DNA of 64,000 bases from a virus: positions 1 through 64,000 of the IMG/VR virus record IMGVR_UViG_3300039098_000071. The stretch is one strand, 5' to 3'. The first letter of the stretch is position 1; each line of letters begins with the position of its first letter. Made by a program: the position numbers and the translations under genes. Below are positions 2,915-46,738 of the stretch, piece after piece. The notes below the pieces were generated by a model. The model was not told where the DNA came from. It saw nothing but the letters and a program-made list of their open reading frames with translations, and did no database searches.

Positions 2915-3085
2915 ATGCCGGATACATCTGTACGCGTGCACCCAGTTACGAAAGACATGATGAAGGCACGCAGTCTAACACACGACGCCAACGGCAAAGC
3001 AACAGAGAGTTATGACAGCATAATCCGAAGAGGCATGGCTGCGCTCGAGCGAACAGAAATCAAAATCGATGTGAGCAAAATATGA
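2915..3085 (+). CDS. Small antitoxin-like / RHH-type protein
   Basis: 56 residues, too short for most gene callers. The sequence S-V-R-V-H-P-V-T-K-D-M and E-S-Y-D-S-I-I-R-R-G-M resembles small archaeal VapB/RHH-like antitoxins, where a beta strand is followed by an E-S/T-Y-D-x-I-I-R helix. Its stop overlaps the next start (ATGA), so it heads the plus-strand operon. A similar pattern (G-E-T-Y-D-D-I-L-I-R) is seen in the gene at 21436-21621. No cognate toxin is recognisable. A regulatory role is inference. Confidence 0.6.
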   Translation: MPDTSVRVHPVTKDMMKARSLTHDANGKATESYDSIIRRGMAALERTEIKIDVSKI

Positions 3086-3774
3086 AACGATCCAACGAAA
3101 GAGACATAAAGAAAGCAGCAAAGCGGATAAAACTAGCTGCGAAGGATTTTGAGGACAGAAAAATATCAGATGAGCGGTTAGCACGGATCGTAATCAAATA
3201 CGAGATTGGTCTGGACCCAATGCATTTTACACCGGACGAACTCGAAAAGATCCTCACGTTCAAAATACAAGCTGAAAAAAAGCTTGTAAAGAAATATGGG
3301 GATGATGATCATTCTGATCGGACCGGATTCGATCACAACCCATATCACAACCCACTCGGGCAGATCATGCAGAGGAAAGCAAAGCCAATGATCAGGAAAG
3401 CAATAAAGCTTGCGCATTGGTACATTGAAAACCGATACGGAAAGAACCCATTTAGATACGACAGTGCATTTACGAAATTCGCCGACGATATGCTAAAAGA
3501 GTACATTGATACGAACTTTTCTCAGAGTGATAAACTGAAACGTGAAATGATGCATGATATCCGGGACATCGTTGGATTCATGCAAAAGGAGGACATCTAT
3601 TATAGAGCGAGAGCCAAAGACTTCATCAATAAGTTTGTTGCAGAATTTAATCGCCGGTATCCGAACGGCATCGAGTTGACAGAACATGAAATCCACAACC
3701 TCCGTCTTTGGGATCGTCCGAACGGTAATCCAGAAGTGGACCGAGCACTACCGCCAGAAGTGGACCGAGCTTAA
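3082..3774 (+). CDS. Hypothetical charged helical protein
   Basis: 230 residues, very rich in Lys, Arg, Asp and Glu, with aromatic patches (W-Y-I-E-N-R-Y-G-K-N-P-F-R-Y) and no recognised domain. It ends with a short duplicated segment (P-E-V-D-R-A repeated) created by a 24-bp tandem repeat. Start overlaps the upstream small gene by 4 bases. The end overlaps a second frame that may also be translated (3686-3871). Its position before the head morphogenesis gene suggests a virion-assembly or accessory role, but nothing proves this. Confidence 0.7.
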   Translation: MKRSNERDIKKAAKRIKLAAKDFEDRKISDERLARIVIKYEIGLDPMHFTPDELEKILTFKIQAEKKLVKKYGDDDHSDRTGFDHNPYHNPLGQIMQRKAKPMIRKAIKLAHWYIENRYGKNPFRYDSAFTKFADDMLKEYIDTNFSQSDKLKREMMHDIRDIVGFMQKEDIYYRARAKDFINKFVAEFNRRYPNGIELTEHEIHNLRLWDRPNGNPEVDRALPPEVDRA

Positions 3775-3871
3775 ACAATACCATGACGACTGGTGGGTCG
3801 AATACACCGAATGGATGTACGAACACCCAGAGATGACACAAGAGCAGATATGGCAAAAATATACTCAATAG
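3686..3871 (+). CDS. Possible small overlapping protein
   Basis: 61 codons in another frame, overlapping both neighbours. The peptide is Trp/Tyr-rich and hydrophilic with a neat ending (E-M-T-Q-E-Q-I-W-Q-K-Y-T-Q), which looks like a real small protein. The 24-bp duplication gives Q-K-W-T-E-H-Y-R-Q-K-W-T-E-L here. No strong ribosome site is seen, and it could be a shadow of the gene at 3082-3774. Confidence 0.4.
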   Translation: MKSTTSVFGIVRTVIQKWTEHYRQKWTELKQYHDDWWVEYTEWMYEHPEMTQEQIWQKYTQ

Positions 3872-6135
3872 ACAAAGCTGAACGGCAAGCAACCCTTGCA
3901 ATCAACCGGATGTACGGTAAGTTGGCATCAGACATTGTGAATACCGATCTTGACTCTGCGTTAAATCGTTTCGGCGAGTCTGATAAACGACGACTCTATC
4001 TTGCCTTCATGCAAGCATATGCCGCCGGGGTGGTTGAGGCGAACCGACTTATCCGAAAGCATGCACCGAAACGAGTTTTCGCTGCTGATTACGTTGGCGA
4101 GGCGTATCCGCTGGAGGATGATCCTTATATTGCGCAGTACACCACCGAGGCGATCATGTCTCTCGAAGACATAGCCGTCAGTGACCGCAAGGAGATCAGG
4201 TGGCGGATGATGCATGCACTGGAGCGGGGGGCGTCAATCGAGAATACTACAAATGATCTGCTCAAATATTTCGATGGCGACCGAATCAGAGCAACACGTT
4301 TTGCCAGGACTGCCACGTCAGATATTTACAACCGTGCCACGCTACATCGGTATGAAGACAGCGGCGTGGTTGACGGTGTTCAATTCATGGCACATATTGA
4401 CAATCGCACCTCGGATGCGTGCAGAGTTTTAAATCGTACAATATGGGCAATCAATGATCCAGGCATTCAAACGCCGCCTCTACATTTTAATTGTTTCATC
4501 GAAGGGACACGACTCGAACCGACCGGTGATATTGTCGCGGCGTTCAGAGCAAGGTATGACGGGCAGGTCGTTGAACTTACGTTGTCCGATGGACGTAGAT
4601 TGACCGTCACCCCGAATCATATGCTCCTCACCCCGGATGGGTTTTTGGCTGCCCAATTTGCCAGCGAGGGCGACAACATAGTCTGCCGCACCACTCTCGA
4701 GAGGGGAATTGGAAGTGTTGATCCAAATAACAACGAGGTGTACCCCTTGGTCGAGGATGTATTTAGTGCGCTCAGCGTATCGCGCGGCGTGTGCACCGAA
4801 TCCATGCCAGCCACCCCCGTTGATCTCCACGGCGATGGGGCATTCGTCGATGGTGATATCGACGTTGTAACGTCCAAACGCCTTTTGCTGGGTGCACGAG
4901 ATTCCGCGGTCGTTGAGCATTTCAACGAACATGTCCTCGGTTCGACTAACCTTGAATCTGATGTTCTCCCGAGTTTTGGCAATCTTGCATCTATGCTCTT
5001 CAGTGTGGCGGACGCCGCGGATGGCCGCATGAGCGGAATCCGTGAGACGGCTCCGTTCTTCGGGGGACGTGTGAGCCATCCTAATATACATGGCGTCACT
5101 CCGATTTCGAAGGGATATACCACGCTCACCGAGACGATCCATAACGACCGACGGAGCAACACCGAATTCCTCGGCAAGCACCTTGACAGAAGTACCCGCG
5201 ACATATCGGGCAACGATCTGATCGACATCAACAACGATTCGTTTGGTGGTTGCAAGCCCCAACCCAGCAAGCCGTCTGTGTATCGTCGTGGCACCAACCC
5301 CGAAATGGTCGGCGAGTTGCTTACCACTCATGCCAGAATTATAGAGGGTCAACATCTCGGTGGTATCGATAACACACCGGCGCCGGGTGGGGACCCCAGC
5401 AACTTTCAACCAATCATAGATCGTAGTCGTGTTGATGCCGAACAGCTTCGACATCTGCTTGACGTCCATTCCGGAATGATAGAGCTCCAAGAAATAATCC
5501 ATATCAACGTCTTTCCGTTTCATGGATATATCTATGATTTCCAGACTATAAGTACTTTATGCATTGGCAATGGTGTTGTCACCTCTAATTGTCGATCACG
5601 TATAATTTGCTACTTTGGTAAAATACCTGGCGCCAGAGATTACACAAAAGATTTCGACCAGGAAACCATAAACAAAGCATTTCAAACATCAAACACATTC
5701 CGAAATAAGTATTGGAATCGATTCCCACGTACACGATCATCAGCCGTCCTCCAGAGGCATTACCTGTCAACCATAGATATAGACACGATCCGACTGGGAC
5801 TTACAAAATTAATCGACTCGAAAGCAATAACCGGCATAGAACACGATCGTCTCAAATTACTGAAAGCATTGTTACGCCGTCGTGTGATCGAGCGTGATTC
5901 ATCAATCATCGTTGACGCGTTCGGAAAGTCCCTGCTACTTGACGTGGCGCAACGAAACGCAATGCGCGCGGGACTGGCACAATTAATAAGATTGCAACGA
6001 CTGAAAATCGACAGAGCAACAGCCGAACTCCCGATATGGTTGGAGCTGACCCTGCCACGCAAAAAGCGAGAGATAAAAGACATGAAACTCACACTGTCAC
6101 AATATGAGATAGCACTCGATGAGTTACCATTCTAA
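3850..6135 (+). CDS. Head morphogenesis protein (SPP1 gp7 / Mu gpF type) with intein
   Basis: The extein halves (214 residues before and 181 after the intein) form a phage minor head protein of the SPP1 gp7/Mu F family: R-T-A-T-S-D-I-Y-N-R-A, then the family's core P-P-L-H-F-N|C-R-S. The intein interrupts the core exactly at this Cys. These proteins bind the portal and shape procapsids. ATG 3850 is preferred over 3793 because the first 19 codons of the longer frame look like a shadow of the upstream genes. The C-terminal part is a Lys/Arg/Leu-rich helical region. It lies on the strand opposite to the rest of the virion operon. The frame stays open through the intein despite a full antisense gene. 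Confidence 0.85.
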   Translation: MAKIYSIDKAERQATLAINRMYGKLASDIVNTDLDSALNRFGESDKRRLYLAFMQAYAAGVVEANRLIRKHAPKRVFAADYVGEAYPLEDDPYIAQYTTEAIMSLEDIAVSDRKEIRWRMMHALERGASIENTTNDLLKYFDGDRIRATRFARTATSDIYNRATLHRYEDSGVVDGVQFMAHIDNRTSDACRVLNRTIWAINDPGIQTPPLHFNCFIEGTRLEPTGDIVAAFRARYDGQVVELTLSDGRRLTVTPNHMLLTPDGFLAAQFASEGDNIVCRTTLERGIGSVDPNNNEVYPLVEDVFSALSVSRGVCTESMPATPVDLHGDGAFVDGDIDVVTSKRLLLGARDSAVVEHFNEHVLGSTNLESDVLPSFGNLASMLFSVADAADGRMSGIRETAPFFGGRVSHPNIHGVTPISKGYTTLTETIHNDRRSNTEFLGKHLDRSTRDISGNDLIDINNDSFGGCKPQPSKPSVYRRGTNPEMVGELLTTHARIIEGQHLGGIDNTPAPGGDPSNFQPIIDRSRVDAEQLRHLLDVHSGMIELQEIIHINVFPFHGYIYDFQTISTLCIGNGVVTSNCRSRIICYFGKIPGARDYTKDFDQETINKAFQTSNTFRNKYWNRFPRTRSSAVLQRHYLSTIDIDTIRLGLTKLIDSKAITGIEHDRLKLLKALLRRRVIERDSSIIVDAFGKSLLLDVAQRNAMRAGLAQLIRLQRLKIDRATAELPIWLELTLPRKKREIKDMKLTLSQYEIALDELPF
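4480..5523 (-). CDS. Antisense homing endonuclease-like gene inside the intein
   Basis: 347 residues encoded opposite the intein. Residues 5-135 hold three helix-turn-helix repeats with the pattern Y-x-S-G-M-x-x-K-Q-L-A-x-x-F-G-V-x-x-T-T-I, as in NUMOD-type DNA-binding modules. Residues about 190-265 match a Vsr/EDxHD-type endonuclease: T-E-D-M-F-V, then V-D-I-T-I-D, V-E-I-N-G-G-G-W-H-G and L-V-V-I-W-I. Its ATG lies opposite intein block F and its stop lies 12 bases beyond the intein N terminus, in extein DNA. Codons are exactly in register with the sense codons, so Leu TTA/CTA and Ser TCA must be avoided. The last 60 residues oppose the Hint N block and may be nonfunctional. A mobility role is inferred. 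Confidence 0.75.
   Translation of the reverse strand: MKRKDVDMDYFLELYHSGMDVKQMSKLFGINTTTIYDWLKVAGVPTRRRCVIDTTEMLTLYNSGMSGKQLADHFGVGATTIHRRLAGLGLATTKRIVVDVDQIVARYVAGTSVKVLAEEFGVAPSVVMDRLGERGISLRNRSDAMYIRMAHTSPEERSRLTDSAHAAIRGVRHTEEHRCKIAKTRENIRFKVSRTEDMFVEMLNDRGISCTQQKAFGRYNVDITIDECPIAVEINGGGWHGFGAHAARYAERTKYILDQGVHLVVIWINTSNSPLESGAADYVVALAGKLGSQKPIRGEEHMIRGDGQSTSIGQRKFNDLPVIPCSERRDNITGRFESCPFDETIKM
4492..5589 (+). other. Intein in the head morphogenesis protein
   Basis: 366 codons from Cys1 (4492-4494) to the terminal Asn (5587-5589), followed by Cys+1. The N block is C-F-I-E-G-T-R-L. Block B is V-T-P-N-H-M-L-L-T, with the T-x-x-H motif. Block F is F-H-G-Y-I-Y-D-F-Q-T, and the C block is G-N-G-V-V-T-S-N. 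The penultimate residue is Ser instead of the common His, which some active inteins tolerate. The Hint halves take roughly the first 65 and last 45 residues. The 250-residue middle has no LAGLIDADG motif and instead lies opposite an endonuclease gene on the minus strand. Splicing is predicted, not shown. Confidence 0.85.
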
Positions 6136-6138
6136 AGA

Positions 6139-6147
6139 TTTATATTA
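6139..6147 (+). promoter_or_regulatory. TATA box for the exonuclease gene
   Basis: TTTATATTA lies 29 bases before ATG 6168, the spacing expected for a leaderless archaeal transcript starting at or near the start codon. Confidence 0.6.
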
Positions 6148-6167
6148 AATGCGCCTAATATGTGACT

Positions 6168-6746
6168 ATGTCTTCAGAACCCACAAAGGTGTTTTTCGAT
6201 ACCGAATCCACGGGATTGCATCAACATACAACACTCATTAGCATCGGCGCGATAGCAGAAAACGGGGAAACATTTTATGCGGAATTTGCTGATTTCGATT
6301 GCAAGCAAGTCGATAATTGGATCAGTGAAAACGTTATCAAACACTTGCGATTTTATGGCAGTGAACACAAAGGCTATAATAATTGTAGCACACAATTAGC
6401 AGGAACGCATCAAGCAAAAACAGAGGCATTCGGAAACACACACTTCGTCAAAAACTGCTTTTTCGATTGGTTAACTGAAATAGGAGATGTAGAAATGTGG
6501 TCGGACTGTTTAGCATACGACTGGGTGCTATTCAACGAATTGATAGGAGGAGCAATGAGCATCCCGCAAAACGTGTATTATATCCCTTTCGATATTTGTA
6601 CAATGTTTAAATTACGTGGCATAGATCCAGACATATCACGAGAAGGGTTTACAGAGGACATGAAAATACAAAAGGGTGCTAAGCACAATGCACTACAGGA
6701 TGCAATAATAATAAAAGCGTGTTATGACAAACTTATGAAAAAGTAA
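6168..6746 (+). CDS. DEDD-family 3'-5' exonuclease (RNase T/DnaQ-like)
   Basis: 192 residues. Exo I is F-F-D-T-E-S-T-G-L, Exo II-type is A-Y-D-W-V-L-F-N-E-L, and Exo III is H-N-A-L-Q-D-A, giving the Asp/Glu metal ligands and catalytic His of the DEDDh group. It removes nucleotides from 3' ends of DNA or RNA. ATG 6168 is chosen because it fits the upstream TATA box; a GTG two codons earlier (6162) is possible. It lies alone, last in the plus-strand island, and may work in genome processing or repair. Confidence 0.85.
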   Translation: MSSEPTKVFFDTESTGLHQHTTLISIGAIAENGETFYAEFADFDCKQVDNWISENVIKHLRFYGSEHKGYNNCSTQLAGTHQAKTEAFGNTHFVKNCFFDWLTEIGDVEMWSDCLAYDWVLFNELIGGAMSIPQNVYYIPFDICTMFKLRGIDPDISREGFTEDMKIQKGAKHNALQDAIIIKACYDKLMKK

Positions 6747-9139: not shown

Positions 9140-11746
9140 TTAGCTCGTGTATATTGTAATTATCCTCTGATCACAATCGGTCTCGGTGAACTTTAAGGTT
9201 ACTACGTCAGCATTCATCTCGGCTTGTGTTAGGTTTACCTTATACATCCCACTCGCAATCTCAGACACAGCATTGGTCAACGCTACAAATGCAGCACCGT
9301 CCTTGCTTACCGTGGCGGAAATCGTCTTTCCAGTCGCTGGCGTGACATGATCCGAACTCAGCACCATCAAGAATTCAAAGTTTGATAGCGCCACGTTCTT
9401 TGCAACACCAGACGGTAAATCATCTGTCTTTGTCTTGATTGCATCAACAACCGTATCGACCGTATCAATCTTGCCATCTGTTACACCGTGCAACGTTGTC
9501 GCCGTCCCTGCGACATCCGGGACAACTTTGTTCGGTGCATAGTTTGCCTGTGTTGTGGCGAGAGTTGCACCGTCGGTTCCTGTGAGCGTATCGAGGTCGG
9601 ATTGTGCCACATCGATCTTCGTTTCGTTTGCATTGACTTCTGTTATGATTGCGTTCTTGTCGGTCGTTGCTTCTGCCCGAGTTGGTGGATCGTAATCAGT
9701 GAGTGCAGCGTCACACTCCGTATTGACCTGTGTAAGTGCGGTGGTCCCCATGCAACTAGCACAAGTTGTGCCGTATGGCATCATCACGTATATGCTAGTT
9801 GTGTCTGGCGTCGTGACCCAGTTATCACCGCAGATCGTTGCGACTTTTGTCGTCCCGTTGTACGCACCCACAAGACGAACTTGCCCACGTCCAGTCCCGG
9901 CAATGATTCCAATCTGGCTACATAGATACGTGTCATTGACGCTCGACGCATAACTGCGCAGCGTAATCGTGGTTGCCGTAGCTGCCACAACCTTACCATG
10001 ATCTACCGTTAGCGGGGTGTCGTCCGGCACAATCTGATACTCAGACGTGTTGTCTGGTGTGGTTCTCCAGTCACGATCAACCACAACAACTTTCGTAGCG
10101 TCAACATAATCCACGATCGTGCGGGTCTGTCCTTGACCAGTACCGTTCACGATCACAATCAGATTACGATTGTACACGCCGTCTCCACCGTTCGCGGTTG
10201 TTGCAAGCGTGATCCCTGTCGATGAGCCTGCCTGTGCAGTGCCCGAGTGAATAGCAAATGCGCCGACCTCTCGCAACCTACGTCCTGCGCTCGTAGCAAC
10301 GTTGTGGGTGGCACCGGTTAATAGCTCATCCCACACAGCGTCCGCGTTCGCTGCAGTGGTTGGTGGGGTGGTGGTGTTTGCTCCATCTGTGCCACGCATA
10401 GCGTCGCCATTCAGTCCAGCGACGTCTGTTGCTATTGTATTGAGATCTACGGAATTTGTGTCCATCTCCTGCCTGATCTCAATTGCTGTCGGCGCAACGC
10501 CGGCGGCATCTGGTGTAACCGAGTTTCTGCTGGTAATCTCATCATCAAGATAATCCCCGAAGGAATTAGCAATTGTGTGCTCGCTCTTGAGTTCATCCCA
10601 AACGGCATCTGCATTTTGTACCGCCGTCGGTGCTGTGGTTCCGGGAGCTGTAACGAATACTTTTGTACCGTCGCCTGCAACAATCGTAAAAGCAGGAGCA
10701 CTGTCAATCGTTATTGTCTTCGTCGCACCCGTGTAAGCAGAGCATTTCCGCACACTCGGATAATCGCTGTCATTTGCGTCATAAACTACAACTGCTTGAT
10801 CTTTGTATGCGTCGTCATCGTTAGAGCCAGCCGTAAGCACAAATACTGTCTGGCTGGTCACCGATGCGATTGTGGTATCAATAAGAACGTTGGGATTGGT
10901 TCCACCACTCGGTGCTTGTTCAAGTGCATTCGCAGTATACCGAGCGACTCCACCGTCGTTTTCCACGAGCTCATTAAGTAAAGCAGTCGCCACACCTGGT
11001 TTCGATGCGGGGTCGTAGTTTACTGCCAGCAGGTGATCAAGATGAATGTCTGATAGTGCGGTCGCTACTTCGGCGGGTGTCGCTGCTACACCTGCCGCAT
11101 CTGGCACGACTGTGTTAAATCCGGTGGCTTTGTAGTCGTTCAAGGTTTCGGAAGGAACTACCAACTGATTCTTTGCACCGAATGATCCTGCGCCGGTGTG
11201 TCCGCTTATTGCCTCATCCCATATAGCGTCTGCATTCGCTGCCGACGTTGGTGCTGCCGCTACCATATCAGTGTTGGTGGTGGTGGTGTCGCAAAGTACA
11301 ACGCCTTGCACTTTGTTCGTTGCCGGATCATACCCCGCATCTGCAAAGTCTTTAAGGTCTATTAATGATTGTGCATCACTGTTCATCTGCACGACGTCGG
11401 TCTCCAGTTTGTCGGTGCCCAACACCAACGAATCGTATCTGTTTGCGGTCATGACTTCGCACTCGACCTTAATCGCAAGTGCACCAGATACGTGCACATA
11501 TACCCAAAGTGCCCCCAATGTATTGGAATCTGTGGCGTCGAGCACACAATAATATATGCCGTTACTGATATGAGTTGCACCGCCGCTATTCTTGTTCGCG
11601 AGCGTTGTAGCGCCATGCCTCCACAATTTTATGTCGGTATTCGCAATCGTGAGCCCGGTCTCTTCGGTATTGCCATCGGTGCTGTCAAGCATATACCCGA
11701 GCGGGATCTCCTGTGACGCTGTCGATTGTCGTATTGGAACCGTCAT
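9140..11746 (-). CDS. Large fibre-like structural protein
   Basis: 868 residues, very rich in Thr, Ala, Val and Asp. It contains three or more diverged copies of a module A-D-A-[IV]-W-D-E-L-x-x-x-H-T, each separated by beta-rich or coiled linker segments with V-V-P-D-A-A-G-V-A. This modular, low-complexity design is typical of phage fibres and appendage proteins. It begins next to the lectin-like gene (adjacent stop/start) and precedes the connector genes. Receptor binding or capsid-fibre function is inferred. Confidence 0.7.
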   Translation of the reverse strand: MTVPIRQSTASQEIPLGYMLDSTDGNTEETGLTIANTDIKLWRHGATTLANKNSGGATHISNGIYYCVLDATDSNTLGALWVYVHVSGALAIKVECEVMTANRYDSLVLGTDKLETDVVQMNSDAQSLIDLKDFADAGYDPATNKVQGVVLCDTTTTNTDMVAAAPTSAANADAIWDEAISGHTGAGSFGAKNQLVVPSETLNDYKATGFNTVVPDAAGVAATPAEVATALSDIHLDHLLAVNYDPASKPGVATALLNELVENDGGVARYTANALEQAPSGGTNPNVLIDTTIASVTSQTVFVLTAGSNDDDAYKDQAVVVYDANDSDYPSVRKCSAYTGATKTITIDSAPAFTIVAGDGTKVFVTAPGTTAPTAVQNADAVWDELKSEHTIANSFGDYLDDEITSRNSVTPDAAGVAPTAIEIRQEMDTNSVDLNTIATDVAGLNGDAMRGTDGANTTTPPTTAANADAVWDELLTGATHNVATSAGRRLREVGAFAIHSGTAQAGSSTGITLATTANGGDGVYNRNLIVIVNGTGQGQTRTIVDYVDATKVVVVDRDWRTTPDNTSEYQIVPDDTPLTVDHGKVVAATATTITLRSYASSVNDTYLCSQIGIIAGTGRGQVRLVGAYNGTTKVATICGDNWVTTPDTTSIYVMMPYGTTCASCMGTTALTQVNTECDAALTDYDPPTRAEATTDKNAIITEVNANETKIDVAQSDLDTLTGTDGATLATTQANYAPNKVVPDVAGTATTLHGVTDGKIDTVDTVVDAIKTKTDDLPSGVAKNVALSNFEFLMVLSSDHVTPATGKTISATVSKDGAAFVALTNAVSEIASGMYKVNLTQAEMNADVVTLKFTETDCDQRIITIYTS

Positions 11747-22375: not shown

Positions 22376-24535
22376 CTAATTGGGATTCTGTCTGTAATGT
22401 TCAACCGTGCTTTCCACAAGTCCTGCAGGTGCACCCATGTCTTCCAGCTTTGCAGTGATCATCGCGAAGCCTGGCGCGCGCATGTAGTAGCGCGGTATGC
22501 CTTCGTACTCTTTCATCTCGGTGTGGACCAACTTCTTGATCGTCTCGATCGTCCACTCTGCGGGGGGTGCATATTTTGCAGTCGGTGCATGGCTCAACTC
22601 GGACACGTCAACCCACTCACATGTTTTACTCCACAGTTCCCGCACAAAATCAAAATCCATATCTGTAAGCACCGAACGTCCATTGATCTGTGCGGACAAC
22701 TCGAGAAGCAGAGTAATGTCTTGTCCCACTCGGTTACTATGGATAGTATCATGCTTGCGCAGTTCATTAACAAAATCAAGTATTCTGTCGCTGTCGTTTT
22801 CCCGATTGACCTGTATCTTGCTACACACTGTGAAATAATCATGGATCGCTGGGTTATATAACAATTTCGATAACACGATGTCACTGATCTTCGTATCATG
22901 TGCATCGAGATGATGTTTATCAAGTTGCCGAGATCTATTCCGAATGAAAAATAAGATCATCCACCGATCCACATCAGGGTATGGCTGTCCGGTATGCCAG
23001 TCCAGCCCCCGATCGTGCCACTCATTGATCATTGCTCCATGCGCGTTCTCTTCTGAGAAGGGTGTGTGCACACCGTCGTCATGATCACGAATCCAGGCGA
23101 ACTCGAATCGTTTTTGTTCATTGGTCACCTGTGGTAATGGATTAGATGTGCCGATAACACAAGCACTCTTCAACAACGATGTCCTATTCCCTGCCACCTC
23201 CTTACTGATCATAGAACTACGCAACACCGAACGCAACAATGGCATCATTTTCGATGCTTGCATGTATACCTCATCGATCACAACCATGTTATACCGCGAT
23301 AGCAGCCCTGCCTCGGGCACGGTAACCGTCGAATCATTTACCTTTAGCTGCGCAGTGGAACCATACAATCCGGGTCCTGACAATGATATAGCCTCCTGTA
23401 TCTTAAATTGCTGGGTTATAGACGCCAAACAAAATCGGGGGGTGCTTGTCTTGCCTACTCCGGGTTCTCCGATTGCCAGCACGTTAGCAGACGTGTATCC
23501 CTGCAAGTTCGCAAGATATGAAAGCAATATCGCTGCTTTATACCAATCCATCCCGTGTATGTGCTTGCCGAGCCGATCATCATGTTGTGCGTCAATCTTG
23601 GATATGAGTTGCCACACAACATGTTCACCTGGCGACAATTCGATGGAGGATGGATTCGGCATGACATCATCAACAGAGATCATAAACAGATGATACCCTG
23701 ATCGAGTGTTGCGCAAGAACACAGCAGCATTGAATTCCCCAGACGGAACCGGCACCAATGAAATGATTGGAAGATCGTTAAAGTCGTCTGTGATAACTTG
23801 TGATACATACCCCGCGCATGACAGATCTTTCGAGGGGGACCGAGTCATCTTACGTCCACACTCTTCGTGATCACACAAAAGGTCCTTGCGCTCAAAAGAG
23901 GACATCATCGAGTTCCCGCACACACACGAGTAGTGATATGCAAGCGGAATCGCAATCCTGGGGTTTCCACCAACGTGATTGAGTTTTATTATCTGGATGC
24001 GCTCAAGTTCGGTGTAGTCAAGAGACCGCACACACTGATTGAGATGTGATGAGAAGCCATATACCGTATATGGATTTTTCCGGAGTGTGTCCATGGTATT
24101 TGTGTAATCAAACACCATATCAACAGGGATGTCTCCGTTAACTTCAACACATCGTTTGTATTCCGCAAACTCATGCCGTTTCTGAATGTTGTCACCGATG
24201 CGTCGGACACATTCCATAAAGAACCAGTCTGTAAAAAACCCGTCATGGTCTACAACATCACATTTTCTCAATTGTGACCGCATCACATTTTTCGATTGCG
24301 CAGTGTAATCGGCGCCATTGAAGACGTCGTCGCAGTGTGGGGTTCGTCCGTAATTGAGATAATGCGGTCGTAACAACTCAAATGTTTTTGTGTACCTTCG
24401 CCGCTGTTCGCCTTTGCTTCGTAGGATGTCCTTTGTAACATCTAAAAAACGTTTTTCATTTCCCTCAAAATATTTCGCATATTTGACATAATGGGCTTCT
24501 TGTTCGCGCAGAGCATCTGGGGACAGCATCGACAT
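22376..24535 (-). CDS. mcm: MCM-like replicative helicase
   Basis: 719 residues, the size of archaeal MCM. An N-terminal helical/OB region contains a zinc-binding C-V-C-G ... C-D-H-E-E-C-G. The AAA+ part holds Walker A G-E-P-G-V-G-K-T-S (about residue 360) and Walker B M-V-V-I-D-E-V-Y-M, with the G-T-S-N-P-L-P sensor-1 strand. It unwinds DNA at replication forks. Divergent from host MCMs in the loops. Directly downstream of an RHH gene and close to the inverted-repeat origin candidate, suggesting origin-linked replication. Confidence 0.85.
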   Translation of the reverse strand: MSMLSPDALREQEAHYVKYAKYFEGNEKRFLDVTKDILRSKGEQRRRYTKTFELLRPHYLNYGRTPHCDDVFNGADYTAQSKNVMRSQLRKCDVVDHDGFFTDWFFMECVRRIGDNIQKRHEFAEYKRCVEVNGDIPVDMVFDYTNTMDTLRKNPYTVYGFSSHLNQCVRSLDYTELERIQIIKLNHVGGNPRIAIPLAYHYSCVCGNSMMSSFERKDLLCDHEECGRKMTRSPSKDLSCAGYVSQVITDDFNDLPIISLVPVPSGEFNAAVFLRNTRSGYHLFMISVDDVMPNPSSIELSPGEHVVWQLISKIDAQHDDRLGKHIHGMDWYKAAILLSYLANLQGYTSANVLAIGEPGVGKTSTPRFCLASITQQFKIQEAISLSGPGLYGSTAQLKVNDSTVTVPEAGLLSRYNMVVIDEVYMQASKMMPLLRSVLRSSMISKEVAGNRTSLLKSACVIGTSNPLPQVTNEQKRFEFAWIRDHDDGVHTPFSEENAHGAMINEWHDRGLDWHTGQPYPDVDRWMILFFIRNRSRQLDKHHLDAHDTKISDIVLSKLLYNPAIHDYFTVCSKIQVNRENDSDRILDFVNELRKHDTIHSNRVGQDITLLLELSAQINGRSVLTDMDFDFVRELWSKTCEWVDVSELSHAPTAKYAPPAEWTIETIKKLVHTEMKEYEGIPRYYMRAPGFAMITAKLEDMGAPAGLVESTVEHYRQNPN

Positions 24536-27400: not shown

Positions 27401-28729
27401 TCATGTCCGATGTGCCCCGCCATGCGCAGACAAGAACCCAGGCGGCAGTCGCACAGGTGGTTTATTTGCCTCTGAAAACAGCAGATACCGGCAGCAATCC
27501 ATACCATGGTCGTTCTCTTTCGTCGGTTCCTCTTTTGCGCTTTTGTCCTTCCACAGATACCCCTGAAATTCGGTGGTGGTGTGCGTCGGCTTCTTTGCAT
27601 TGATGAGGTGCTGGTCAACCTCGGTCAATGCATCGGAAAAGAAATACACCCCTGCCTTTCCTGCCACGTTGAACGTCAGTTTTGAGTACACTTCTTGTAT
27701 GCCTTCACTGACGTTCTTGATTGCCGCAGTTGTCTCTACTCCGTACTTCTCGAGCGTTGCGCGCCCTTCTGCGTCGTGGTCTGCATACGTTATATCGATT
27801 GTTTCTCCTTCCGACAACCTCGTGATGTCTCGTGCGTGGTCCTCAACCAGTCGGCGAGACATGTATATTTCTCGATACATATATGCGGCGTCGTCCGGGT
27901 CAAACGCAAACCACTGACACACGAACGGATTGGTGTATCCAAAGTCCACTACCCTAACACGCCGCCAGTCGGCAGGTATCTCGAACGACTCAATCACGTG
28001 TCTGGTCGGATCGAACACAGGATACACCAGCCCCTCGAATGCGGTCCATTTCCCGAGCACGTACCTGTCTCGATACATCCCCTTGAAATCGTCGAGACGA
28101 TAAATGTAATCTTCCGGGTTAAACGTGTTTTGCAACGCGTTGCTCTCAACAACAGAGGTAAGGCGGGATCCATCCTTTTTCGATCGCGGCAGGTCCTCGT
28201 AAAATCGTTTGTACAGAAAATGCTCTGGATACCCCGGATTGGTAGCCATGAATATCTGCCGCATCGGAACGTTCGCCTGTCGCAAACGACCAAGCAACAT
28301 GACATAATCATCCTCGTTGATCTCGACCGCTTCATCAACGGCGATCCATCCCACCTCGAGTGATCCCCACTTATCCGGGTCGTCCAGTCCGCCGTAGATG
28401 ATTTCACTGCCGTTTGCAAGCGCAATCAACTGTTCCGATTTGTTATGATTCAGAATCGCATCGGGTGGTATGACTGGCTGCCCACCAGTCCCGCGCAGAA
28501 GTGTTCGAAGAGTGGTATGCCTGAGGCTCTTCATTGTCTTGCGCACAATCAGCCCGAAGTTGCCGGGATAGTACACGCTCAGGAAATACGCCTTCTCGCA
28601 CAGTATCTTTGTCTTCCCTGCACCAAATGCACCGCTGTACAATAGCTCAGGTGTGACGTCCTCCATGAACTTTCGCTGTCCTGGCAGCAGCTCAAGTTTC
28701 TGTTGGTTCGGGGTATTTGCTCTGGTCAA
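27401..28729 (-). CDS. terL: Terminase large subunit
   Basis: 442 residues. Walker A S-G-A-F-G-A-G-K-T (residues 32-40), Walker B W-I-A-V-D-E-A (about 130), and an RNase H-like nuclease domain with V-V-D-F-G-Y-T-N-P, Y-A-D-H-D-A-E-G and N-D-H-G-M-D-C-C-R-Y. It powers DNA packaging and cuts concatemers. The start region overlaps the small subunit gene. Confidence 0.93.
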   Translation of the reverse strand: MTRANTPNQQKLELLPGQRKFMEDVTPELLYSGAFGAGKTKILCEKAYFLSVYYPGNFGLIVRKTMKSLRHTTLRTLLRGTGGQPVIPPDAILNHNKSEQLIALANGSEIIYGGLDDPDKWGSLEVGWIAVDEAVEINEDDYVMLLGRLRQANVPMRQIFMATNPGYPEHFLYKRFYEDLPRSKKDGSRLTSVVESNALQNTFNPEDYIYRLDDFKGMYRDRYVLGKWTAFEGLVYPVFDPTRHVIESFEIPADWRRVRVVDFGYTNPFVCQWFAFDPDDAAYMYREIYMSRRLVEDHARDITRLSEGETIDITYADHDAEGRATLEKYGVETTAAIKNVSEGIQEVYSKLTFNVAGKAGVYFFSDALTEVDQHLINAKKPTHTTTEFQGYLWKDKSAKEEPTKENDHGMDCCRYLLFSEANKPPVRLPPGFLSAHGGAHRT

Positions 28730-43527: not shown

Positions 43528-45894
43528 CTAAATGAGTTTTAATTGCCGTTCGCAATTGTCAACGATGGTTTGTTCCACTTTGCCGCTTGTCACTGTTCGT
43601 AGGTGCAAATCAGCATATTCTTTCAAATTCGCTGACGATGTCACAAACCACCATTTATCAATTCGAGCAGACAGATCTAACCGTTCGGTCTTGTCCATGA
43701 CGTCTGATCGATTATTCTTTCCCGTTTCGTACTCAAAACCAATTACGTAGCTATTAGGCAGCTCCATCATAACGTCACAATCCATGCCGTTGTCATTGAT
43801 CGTGGTCTTCAGTCCCTTCAACTTGCCGATCTCAGCGATTAAATGCGTCATGATGAAATGCTCGGGTGATTGATTACTCGGAAGATTCCTGATCATGAAG
43901 TCGGCAGTTCCACGCCCAATAATCTTCGAGCCATTGACCCGAGTATACGCTCCACCAACGAGCTGTGGATCCGTCAGGTGCTCGATCTGCGAGTGTGTCA
44001 GATCCCGGCATCGATGAATGTCTTTCGACATATCCATAGGAGCCGACGCGTCCACGTTCACACCATTTGCAGATGCTTCGATGAGTTTCTTTTCGATCTG
44101 CGCGGGAGGTGTCTTAAATTTCATCGCGTTCTTTCCCGAGATTAGGTATCCTTCACCACGTTCGAGTCCCGGTAGGTCTGCCGCTTGCGCCATAGTAAGT
44201 CCCATCATCGATCCTAACTGCTTCGAGTATGCCGTGGCGATGCGCATAACGATCGTTAGAGCGACGTTGTTGATGATCGCTTCGTCAACACCGCTCTTCA
44301 TCACATCGGCGAGGTCCTGTGTGACCAAGATCAATCCCATCTTCTTGAATCTGCACGTTTTGATGATGTTATGCACGTGGATCGAGTTGGATGCAAGGAT
44401 CGCCCATGCCTCGTCTATCACAACACTTCGGAAGCCTCGGTCAGATTCAGACATGTACTCATACAGTGAACTCATGAGCATGTACATTACCGCATTCTGC
44501 ACGTCAGCCGGAACATTTGATATGTCATAATTGATCAATTTGCCATCGAATTTTATCGAAGTCTGCCCGTTGAAAAACGACTCGTACGTTCCACCGTCGG
44601 CAAAACGCTTGACCTTTGATGCCAGTGCCATGGCAGCAACACGATCAGACTGAATGATATCGAATTCCGTTTTGATGCGTCCGTTAATGTATGACGCCAA
44701 AACCTCATAAAACTCTCCGATCGTCGGCATTTCTTTGTTCCAAGTACTCCGATCATTTGTAATCCCTTTAGTCTCATAGAGAACGTTTATGCAAGTATCG
44801 AGAATTGACTTGCCTGCGTCCGTAACTCCGCCCGTAAGCATCTCGAAAAATGCTGGCAAACTCTGTTTCCTTACTGATAGCGAAGACCGCCCGAGGTCAA
44901 ACGGATTCATCGTGGTAGGCGATCCTTCCTGTATGATAATGTTCTCTCCATTGAACTCAGCAACCAATCCGGAGTACTCGCCCTTCGGATCGATGATGAT
45001 AACATCTTTCCCAGTTTCCAAGTCACGCATGATAAACAACGAGATCATGAATGACTTACCAGAACCAGACGATGCAAACACCGCCATATTATAATTCATC
45101 ATCGATGAATCGAACCTGTTTATGTGAATCGGCATGCCAGATGCATGCTCCCAGATCACAGTCTCCGCCGTTGGATTCGTGTCAATCCGTGCCCTACCAG
45201 GGAGTGCTATCGTCATGGCTGCGCTGGTCGTGTCCATGTGTCTGGCAGTCTCCAGATCATCGATGCCTACAGGCATCATCGACATGTGTCCTCTTGTGTT
45301 TCGGTATACCATCCGTTCCGGCTTGATCATTATTCCTTGCAGCGCCGACCACAACGACGCCACATTTGTCTCGAGCACTCGCTCATCATCTGCATGCACA
45401 CTAAAATATGTAGCAAAGTCAAACATGCGCTCCTCACCGCGCTGGATCGATGCAAGTCGTTTCGTCAACGAGCCGAGCTGCGAAGCCTCCGATAAGGACA
45501 GTTCCTTCTTTTCAATGCGAGCGAGTTCCTGGCTGGTCTTCAATTTATCGATCGATTTCTCGATCTTCTTCATCGCGACGTCATTGTCGATAGGCGAGAT
45601 GTGCTGTGAGAAGTCTACCCTCCCTGATGCATCGTTAATCAGGTGATACATCCAGTTTGGTTTCATCGTTCCGGGAATCCCCACCATGGCAAGGATCGAA
45701 TGCTTCTCATCACCGATCTGAATATGATCGGGCTCATCGACCACCACGGTTGGCGTGATCAATCGTTTCAGCATCGAAGCATCCCCGGTCACGTCCATGT
45801 CGATGTTCGTTGGCACGCTCGGGGTACGCAACTTGCGCACGATAACAGAGTTTCCTTTCAGGAAATACCGTTTTAAAGACGTTAGTTTATTCAT
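43528..45894 (-). CDS. VirB4-like ATPase with C-terminal nuclease-like domain
   Basis: 788 residues from the ATG at 45892-45894. N-terminal scaffold, then Walker A A-S-S-G-S-G-K-S and Walker B V-V-I-D-E-A-W of a VirB4/TraC family motor that drives type IV secretion. The last about 120 residues hold D-V-M-M-E-L, G-F-E-Y-E-T-G-K and a neighbouring helix, matching PD-(D/E)XK-type nucleases. The nuclease fusion is uncommon. It belongs to an operon with VirB2-, VirB6- and VirB3-like genes; VirD4, VirB11 and a relaxase were not found. Confidence 0.83.
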   Translation of the reverse strand: MNKLTSLKRYFLKGNSVIVRKLRTPSVPTNIDMDVTGDASMLKRLITPTVVVDEPDHIQIGDEKHSILAMVGIPGTMKPNWMYHLINDASGRVDFSQHISPIDNDVAMKKIEKSIDKLKTSQELARIEKKELSLSEASQLGSLTKRLASIQRGEERMFDFATYFSVHADDERVLETNVASLWSALQGIMIKPERMVYRNTRGHMSMMPVGIDDLETARHMDTTSAAMTIALPGRARIDTNPTAETVIWEHASGMPIHINRFDSSMMNYNMAVFASSGSGKSFMISLFIMRDLETGKDVIIIDPKGEYSGLVAEFNGENIIIQEGSPTTMNPFDLGRSSLSVRKQSLPAFFEMLTGGVTDAGKSILDTCINVLYETKGITNDRSTWNKEMPTIGEFYEVLASYINGRIKTEFDIIQSDRVAAMALASKVKRFADGGTYESFFNGQTSIKFDGKLINYDISNVPADVQNAVMYMLMSSLYEYMSESDRGFRSVVIDEAWAILASNSIHVHNIIKTCRFKKMGLILVTQDLADVMKSGVDEAIINNVALTIVMRIATAYSKQLGSMMGLTMAQAADLPGLERGEGYLISGKNAMKFKTPPAQIEKKLIEASANGVNVDASAPMDMSKDIHRCRDLTHSQIEHLTDPQLVGGAYTRVNGSKIIGRGTADFMIRNLPSNQSPEHFIMTHLIAEIGKLKGLKTTINDNGMDCDVMMELPNSYVIGFEYETGKNNRSDVMDKTERLDLSARIDKWWFVTSSANLKEYADLHLRTVTSGKVEQTIVDNCERQLKLI

Positions 45895-46738
45895 TCTTAA
45901 CCTCCACTGCATCCGATAGATAATCGATTCCTTTCCTTCCTATTCCTGTCGTAACCATCATGAGCATCGTTGCCAGGTCTGACTTTTGGAGACGTTCGGA
46001 AATCACGCCTGATCTCATCAGGTTTTTCGTGATCACGGCTGCATGGTCGCCGATGACTTTCACCGCGTCGTGTGTCTGTGCATCTATAGACAGAATCATG
46101 AAATACATTGGTTCCTGCACATTCTCATCTTCACAACGCTTCTTATAATCGTTTAGATGTGCAACCAAGTATTTCTGATGCTTCTCCGGCATGGCTCGTG
46201 CGTTATGTAGCATTGCATCGATGTAATCGGATGTGTTGTATGCAAACGTGTATCTTACGATCTGGATCTTACACGGCAGGGCATTCAAAAAGTGCTTGTC
46301 CATGTCAATTCTCGTATCCACATCGGCATCGTTGACACGATCAGAGTTCAGTGCAGTCATCGATAACGCAACGCACACATTCCCTTCTTTGTTGAGATAC
46401 CAGCCATCAGCGATGCTGACAGTGCCGGATAGGTCTTTCGCTATCCGATTATGCCGATCGGCGACGTAAGGAGTGATCGCCCACCTTGCCATCCGGTATG
46501 CTTTGATGTCCAACTTTCCGAAGACGATTACTGCAATGAGCGGCACGTAAATTATGATCGGTATCCGGAACACCATCGACTCCCACGTGAACCCCATACT
46601 TACGATCAATTCATACCATTTTATCACGGCAATCGCTGAAATAAGCAATATCAGTCCGTGCCTCGTTGTTAATCCGAACCACGGTTTTGGCTCGAATTCC
46701 AAATCTTCTGGTACATCGTACCCCTGTTTTATATCCAT
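45887..46738 (-). CDS. PrgI/VirB3-like membrane protein
   Basis: 283 residues from ATG 46736-46738 with an AAAGGAG site. Two hydrophobic segments near the start (L-I-L-L-I-S-A-I-A-V-I and I-I-I-Y-V-P-L-I-A-V-I), typical of the PrgI family that links VirB4 to the inner membrane, and a long cytoplasmic domain. Overlaps the VirB4-like gene. Confidence 0.7.
   Translation of the reverse strand: MDIKQGYDVPEDLEFEPKPWFGLTTRHGLILLISAIAVIKWYELIVSMGFTWESMVFRIPIIIYVPLIAVIVFGKLDIKAYRMARWAITPYVADRHNRIAKDLSGTVSIADGWYLNKEGNVCVALSMTALNSDRVNDADVDTRIDMDKHFLNALPCKIQIVRYTFAYNTSDYIDAMLHNARAMPEKHQKYLVAHLNDYKKRCEDENVQEPMYFMILSIDAQTHDAVKVIGDHAAVITKNLMRSGVISERLQKSDLATMLMMVTTGIGRKGIDYLSDAVEVKNE

Follow-up and report, generated by a model that had tools for sequence, protein, structure and literature searches.

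A predicted homing endonuclease gene encoded antisense, in exact codon register, to an intein in a phage head morphogenesis gene

The window analysed here is a DNA stretch of 64,000 nucleotides from the IMG/VR virus record IMGVR_UViG_3300039098_000071, and it contains a MuF-type head protein gene interrupted by an intein whose complementary strand carries, in exact codon register, a long open frame for a Vsr/EDxHD-like nuclease. Considered together with its relatives, this locus is very probably a mobile intein with a divided layout, in which the splicing intein is encoded in sense and the homing endonuclease in antisense. Gene structure, register, folds, selection on each strand, the promoter, Shine-Dalgarno and start signals of the relatives and the presence/absence polymorphism were established by computation, and from these we infer splicing, cleavage, the cut site and expression. 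In the proposed mechanism, the plus strand would be translated as MuF-intein-MuF, and the intein would splice itself out, yielding the intact head protein. A separate homing endonuclease gene would occupy the minus strand, starting at an ATG complementary to intein block F and served by its own promoter inside the DNA for blocks G and F. Its product, reading a long target by three helix-turn-helix (HTH) modules, would cleave MuF alleles that lack the intein, at their H-x-N↓C-R site (the arrow marks the insertion point), and repair from an intein-bearing copy would install the intein and the nuclease gene jointly. Such loci likely form a class of mobile elements in their own right, both ancient and widespread, whose C-terminal intein blocks are encoded by DNA that also serves as antisense promoter, ribosome site and start codon.

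In this way, a single DNA stretch of ~250-350 codons is shared by two functionally distinct, unrelated proteins across numerous phage genera, one of the rare clear examples of extended double coding on opposite strands, with selection measurable on each of them. The arrangement explains why phage head genes can contain large inteins with a middle that has no recognizable resemblance, and it brings to light a family of genes that annotation has overlooked.

Organization of the locus

The first-pass annotation had placed on the minus strand a 347-residue open reading frame (ORF) in exact codon register across a 366-codon intein, and both the coordinates and the shared codon boundaries were borne out. 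The two overlapping ORFs are:

3793-6135 (+): MuF-intein-MuF sense ORF, 780 aa
4480-5523 (-): predicted homing endonuclease gene (347 aa), antisense to the intein and in exact codon register

The sense ORF fully encloses the minus ORF, the codon boundaries of both being 1 mod 3, and the stop codon of the antisense gene falls just beyond the intein, in the N-extein. Exact register makes dual coding possible, since only the Leu codons TTA and CTA and the Ser codon TCA become stops on the opposite strand and can be avoided by synonymous codons. Among the 21 Leu and 21 Ser codons of the antisense ORF none is one of these three, as had been noticed at first pass; 8.4 were predicted from the codon usage of this virus (P(0) = 8e-5).

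In the same region (3082-6746), MuF and its neighbours lie on the plus strand and most of the surrounding long ORFs on the minus strand; the antisense nuclease is therefore co-oriented with the rest of the genome in the window. Terminase large subunit families (phrog_2 and phrog_2666) were matched by two minus-strand ORFs, 27401-28729 and 43528-45912, and no PHROGs match was obtained for the large ORFs 9140-11746 (-), of 868 aa, and 22376-24535 (-), of 719 aa. The virus seems only remotely related to known phages.

The sense strand

The features of the sense ORF are the following:

3793..4491 (+): N-extein, MuF / SPP1 gp7-like head morphogenesis protein (PF04233), ending in PPLHFN↓
4492..5589 (+): intein of 366 aa, C1 to N366 (PF14890, profile and Foldseek matches to the Mtu RecA and KlbA inteins, boundaries)
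4603..4644 (+): intein block B, T-V-T-P-N-H-M-L-L-T-P-D-G-F, whose antisense shadow is the nuclease tail E-H-M-I-R-G-D-G
4828..4839 (+): H-G-D-G motif opposite antisense P-I-A-V, with nearly invariant antisense wobble positions
5518..5547 (+): intein block F, F-H-G-Y-I-Y-D-F-Q-T, whose complement carries the nuclease ATG (5521-5523)
5557..5589 (+): intein block G, L-C-I-G-N-G-V-V-T-S-N↓C, with penultimate Ser, not His
5590..6135 (+): C-extein of the MuF protein, starting CRSRI

The sense ORF matched Phage_Mu_F (PF04233, 1.4e-11) and the SPP1 gp7 family (TIGR01641, 1e-16), both interrupted by the intein (PF14890), and the insertion point coincides with a conserved MuF site, H-x-N↓C-R-S/C, which in the window reads HFN↓CRSRI. 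The intein begins with C1 at 4492, invariant in the alignment; block B holds its T-x-x-H signature as TPNH (residues 40-43, T40 and H43 invariant), and blocks F (YIYDF) and G are present with the terminal Asn (N366, 5587-5589) and the following Cys. The penultimate His of block G, which is usual for inteins and not universal, is absent in the window (Ser-Asn), and part of the family has His-Asn. The PF14890 score of the window intein (28.8) lies below the gathering cut-off of 35.8, and 28 of 29 family members match this model.

Structure prediction of the sense intein was confident for residues 1-70, 80-128 and 316-366 and disordered for 131-313, with pLDDT values of 80-98 in the Hint halves and ~30 in the middle, from an alignment that includes shadow conservation from the antisense gene. 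The Foldseek matches of this model were inteins, the Mtu RecA intein being recovered with probability 1.00, as expected for a Hint fold. On sequence features and the predicted fold, the insert is assigned to the class 1 Hint inteins, all tested features being present except the usual penultimate His, and is predicted to splice. A related-locus search with the whole sense protein as query found no relative.

The antisense nuclease

The antisense protein comprises the following parts:

5401..5502 (-): HTH repeat 1, aa 8-41 (domain and fold evidence)
5263..5364 (-): HTH repeat 2, aa 54-87, PF02796 HTH_7 (domain and fold evidence)
5125..5226 (-): HTH repeat 3, aa 100-133 (domain and fold evidence)
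4648..4944 (-): Vsr/I-Bth0305I-like nuclease domain, aa 194-292, with conserved E196, Y219, N220, D222, E233, H240 and R252

The three HTH repeats and Vsr/EDxHD-like nuclease initially proposed for the minus strand were substantiated by HMM and fold searches. HMM searches returned MTES_1575, DUF559 and Vsr matches, and REase_MTES_1575 was matched by 59 of the 62 antisense family members. The structural model of the antisense protein reached a mean pLDDT of 87 (~97 in the nuclease domain), and its best Foldseek matches were Vsr (1vsr, 1cw0) and I-Bth0305I (3r3p), with probability 1.00 and E values of 0.003-0.009. A phmmer search of the antisense protein against PDB gave nothing useful; profile and Foldseek searches did yield matches. 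The acidic and His residues E196, D222, E233 and H240 were conserved among the antisense homologues. Judged by its modelled fold, the nuclease is placed in the Vsr/EDxHD group and would be expected to cleave DNA.

Distribution of the overlap and a free-standing homologue

A tblastn search with the minus-strand protein matched 121 phage records, and the leading matches lay antisense to MuF or head morphogenesis genes, or to hypothetical proteins in the same place. The phage groups with matches included those of Gordonia, Salmonella, Klebsiella, Vibrio, Idiomarinaceae, Pseudomonas, Edwardsiella and Aggregatibacter, among others, and the antisense protein was found to be conserved among phages of several bacterial phyla. 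Moreover, a pattern search of IMG/VR confirmed 351 relatives, of which 80 loci were kept, and nine bacterial genomes were added. It was verified that the sense frame remained open across the nuclease, in exact register, in 99 of 100 IMG/VR and phage loci, the exception being the free-standing copy of phage P1068, and the same overlap was present in every bacterial locus examined. The overlap is shared by more than 100 homologous loci, from phages of several genera, IMG/VR and bacterial genomes, and is confirmed as a widespread and conserved arrangement. In the IMG/VR loci with placeable boundaries, the intein occupied the MuF-type H-x-N↓C-R-C site. In two bacterial genomes, antisense-nuclease inteins were observed in other genes: in a lysin-like protein gene (L124, judged by eye from the sequence) and in a host gene other than MuF (L123). 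In all the annotated phage regions fetched except P1068, the sense gene alone was annotated. Inteins of the same family with a sense-encoded nuclease in their middle, which the first-pass annotation had named as evidence against its reading, were not seen in this family.

Across the overlaps of 76 non-redundant loci, TTA, CTA and TCA codons numbered 0 against 530 expected; the zero itself holds by definition, as the loci were chosen with an open sense frame, and the weight lies in the distance from expectation and in the control. This control is provided by Acinetobacter phage P1068 (L021), in which a homologous nuclease gene adjoins an uninterrupted MuF gene instead of lying inside it. The P1068 nuclease gene (1953-2846, +) overlaps the end of the intein-free MuF gene by 7 bp, its complementary frame is closed, and its stop-making Leu/Ser codons number 13, where 11.7 would be expected. 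In related Acinetobacter phages, what follows the MuF gene is different.

Selection on each strand

The first-pass annotation had suggested that both strands may be under selection, and this was corroborated in relatives by the distribution of substitutions over codon positions, which places the two selective regimes mostly in different segments. The window sequence has no close relative, and substitutions were counted within four sets of closely related family members (one Jersey-type, two from Gordonia and one from Vibrio); sense codon position 1 is the antisense wobble position. In the nuclease core, substitutions at sense positions 1/2/3 amounted to 272/58/136, compared with 343/252/942 in the exteins, 33/12/62 in the intein N-block and 2/4/15 in the C-block. 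The antisense wobble share of substitutions was 58% in the middle of the element vs 22% in the exteins (Fisher p=5e-47, from counts that pool the groups and take sites as independent, the direction in the core being the same in each group). At 329 variable codons, the antisense amino acid varied at 146 and the sense amino acid at 272. This pattern indicates that the core is selected mainly as an antisense protein, and the splicing blocks and exteins as a sense protein.

These data bear on the explanation that the minus ORF stays open by chance, as a by-product of plus-strand codon bias, and yields no protein. It is generally known that exact-register antisense frames stay open easily under strong codon bias; nevertheless, this explanation is extremely unlikely here, considering the conservation across phages of several phyla, the invariant putative catalytic residues and the confident fold, the accumulation of substitutions at the antisense rather than the sense wobble position, and a free-standing homologue without any sense frame.

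There also appears to be local double selection. In the wide alignment, most of the conserved antisense columns varied at the antisense wobble position, and the four columns opposite sense H-G-D-G did not; at this motif, the sense G and D were more conserved than the antisense P and I. The segment V-D-L-H-G-D-G, earlier noted as facing the nuclease core, is partly a shadow of the nuclease; that the whole of it is such a shadow was considered and rejected, given that the antisense wobble of P229-I230-A231-V232 is almost invariant. From this comparison of sequences, the H-G-D-G segment appears to be under double selection, and its being missing from L123 indicates that it is not essential. A sense function for the near-invariant sense Pro 78, 84 and 106 was rejected, these residues being the complements of nuclease Trp 267, 261 and 239.

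Expression signals nested in the intein blocks

In the typical family member, block F reads G-H-V-Y-D-L-Q, the complement of its His codon CAT is the nuclease ATG, and the complement of GAC-CTC-CAA, TTGGAGGTC, provides a Shine-Dalgarno sequence 8 nt upstream. The block-F Leu was encoded by CTC in 49 of 53 loci vs 12.4 expected (p=1e-26), CTC accounting for 33% elsewhere in the intein N-part; a control with ordinary inteins offered two usable cases only. Further upstream, relatives present a σ70 promoter on the complement of S-L-Y-I-A-N-G-V-L-S-S-N. The promoter match averaged 9.8/12 vs 6.6 in synonymous recodings (combined p=2e-31), a perfect 12/12 TTGACA-N17/18-TATAAT occurred at a fixed place in 18 of 62 loci, and the distance from the end of the –10 element to the block-F start codon was exactly 26 nt in 35 of the 62. 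Across 821 kb of flanking sequence, scanned on both strands, 12/12 sites were absent and four sites scored at least 11.

In the window, the corresponding signals are weak:

5554..5582 (-): promoter-like GTGACA-17-TAAAGT, 9/12, placed as the conserved promoter of the relatives
5537-5542 (complement): Shine-Dalgarno-like GGAAAT, 13 nt before the ATG

Promoter-like sites of the 9/12 level numbered 79 in the window vs 70 expected, so that such strength is not unusual there. Taking the family as a whole, the nuclease gene is probably transcribed from its own promoter within the block G/F DNA. Some loci (L023, L025, L034 and others) carry perfect 12/12 σ70 promoters nested in the coding sequence of the last intein residues, and in this subgroup the usual penultimate His is replaced by Ser; a –35 box needing TCA-AGY there is perhaps the reason for the penultimate Ser.

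Comparison with known systems

The intein endonucleases known so far form part of the intein polypeptide. Canonical mobile inteins, such as PI-MtuI, PI-SceI and PI-PfuI, resemble the present element in having an in-frame Hint domain for self-splicing at a conserved position within a conserved gene, a nuclease between blocks B and F, and a homing-type distribution. Their nuclease (LAGLIDADG or HNH) is, however, encoded in sense as an intein domain, whereas the present element has a nuclease gene of its own on the complementary strand, in exact register and with nested expression signals, facing a sense middle predicted to be unstructured. Vsr-like/EDxHD homing endonucleases are also known from fractured split-intein loci; fractured genes, split inteins and free-standing Vsr-like endonuclease genes in phages were reportedly described by Dassa et al. 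in 2009. In those loci intein halves likewise flank a Vsr-like homing gene, but they form two separate ORFs, whereas the window and its relatives have one continuous sense ORF with the gene in antisense, and no split is needed.

The I-Bth0305I-type Vsr-like/EDxHD homing endonucleases share with the antisense protein the nuclease fold and a multi-domain DNA-binding layout; they were described from group I introns, and antisense placement to an intein, as present here, is not described in the accessible part of that source (PMC3943268). The ShiLan-type insertion, which carries a hidden, out-of-frame HNH nuclease on the same strand (PMC11855218), is similar in that a homing nuclease overlaps an open in-frame insertion of a phage gene; it differs in its same-strand shifted frame, its HNH family and its lack of a splicing domain, where the present element has Hint blocks and an antisense nuclease. 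The same paper cites a preprint for overlapping reading frames in actinophages (PMC11855218). All the parts of the element described here belong to known families, and its layout has, as far as checked, no described counterpart, the nearest being the same-strand ShiLan insertion. In the literature searched, no precedent for an antisense nuclease in an intein was found, a 2025 actinobacteriophage intein preprint aside. This preprint, by Gosselin, Arsenault and Gogarten, reportedly mentions non-canonical intein architecture in its title and may include Gordonia cases.

Mobility and decay

Intein-free alleles were found in close siblings of intein-bearing phages: the extein protein was 98.7% identical in Gordonia Jabberwocky and 98.9% identical in Salmonella FSL SP-101. 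In addition, the exteins of Vivi2 and Keitabear were 99%/97% identical and their inteins only 35%, indicating that inteins have been exchanged at this site. As phages with and without the intein exist, homing is open to direct crosses. The intein-free siblings also speak against the antisense protein being a phage regulator or a repair enzyme, a reading prompted by its HTH repeats, which match regulators too, and by Vsr itself being a mismatch repair enzyme. Such a role is highly improbable for a protein that accompanies inteins at one site in unrelated phages, whose site is uninterrupted in the intein-free siblings, and that counts a homing endonuclease, I-Bth0305I, among its closest solved relatives.

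A decayed copy was recognized in a Thiotrichales genome (L121, 2896-4305), where the intein is intact and the nuclease lacks its ATG and carries a stop and an in-frame deletion of ~70 codons. Antisense stops beside an intact intein had been named at the outset as contrary evidence, and L121 is the one such case; its nuclease being otherwise degraded as well, the copy is read from its sequence as homing-cycle decay, a state that the cycle predicts, and not as a refutation.

L121 is also relevant to the explanation that the antisense nuclease alone matters and the plus strand is simply stop-free, the insert remaining unspliced, as proposed for the ShiLan insertion. The sense middle is indeed variable and predicted to be disordered, and the ShiLan case suggests that some insertions hide a nuclease and do not splice. 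An unspliced insert is nonetheless very unlikely in this family: conservation extends to blocks A, B, F and G, the terminal Asn and the following Cys, the substitutions within these blocks fall at sense position 3, the Hint fold is matched at probability 1.00, the site is a conserved head-protein motif, and L121 keeps its intein frame after decay of the nuclease. For a spliced, mobile intein, the intein-free alleles, the unrelated inteins between near-identical exteins and the decayed copy indicate homing at the level of sequence comparison.

The origin of the arrangement may be illustrated by P1068. By analogy with the collaborative homing of introns (PMC3984707), the P1068 locus suggests that a nuclease gene standing free beside its target may later have been taken up by an intein inserted at that site.
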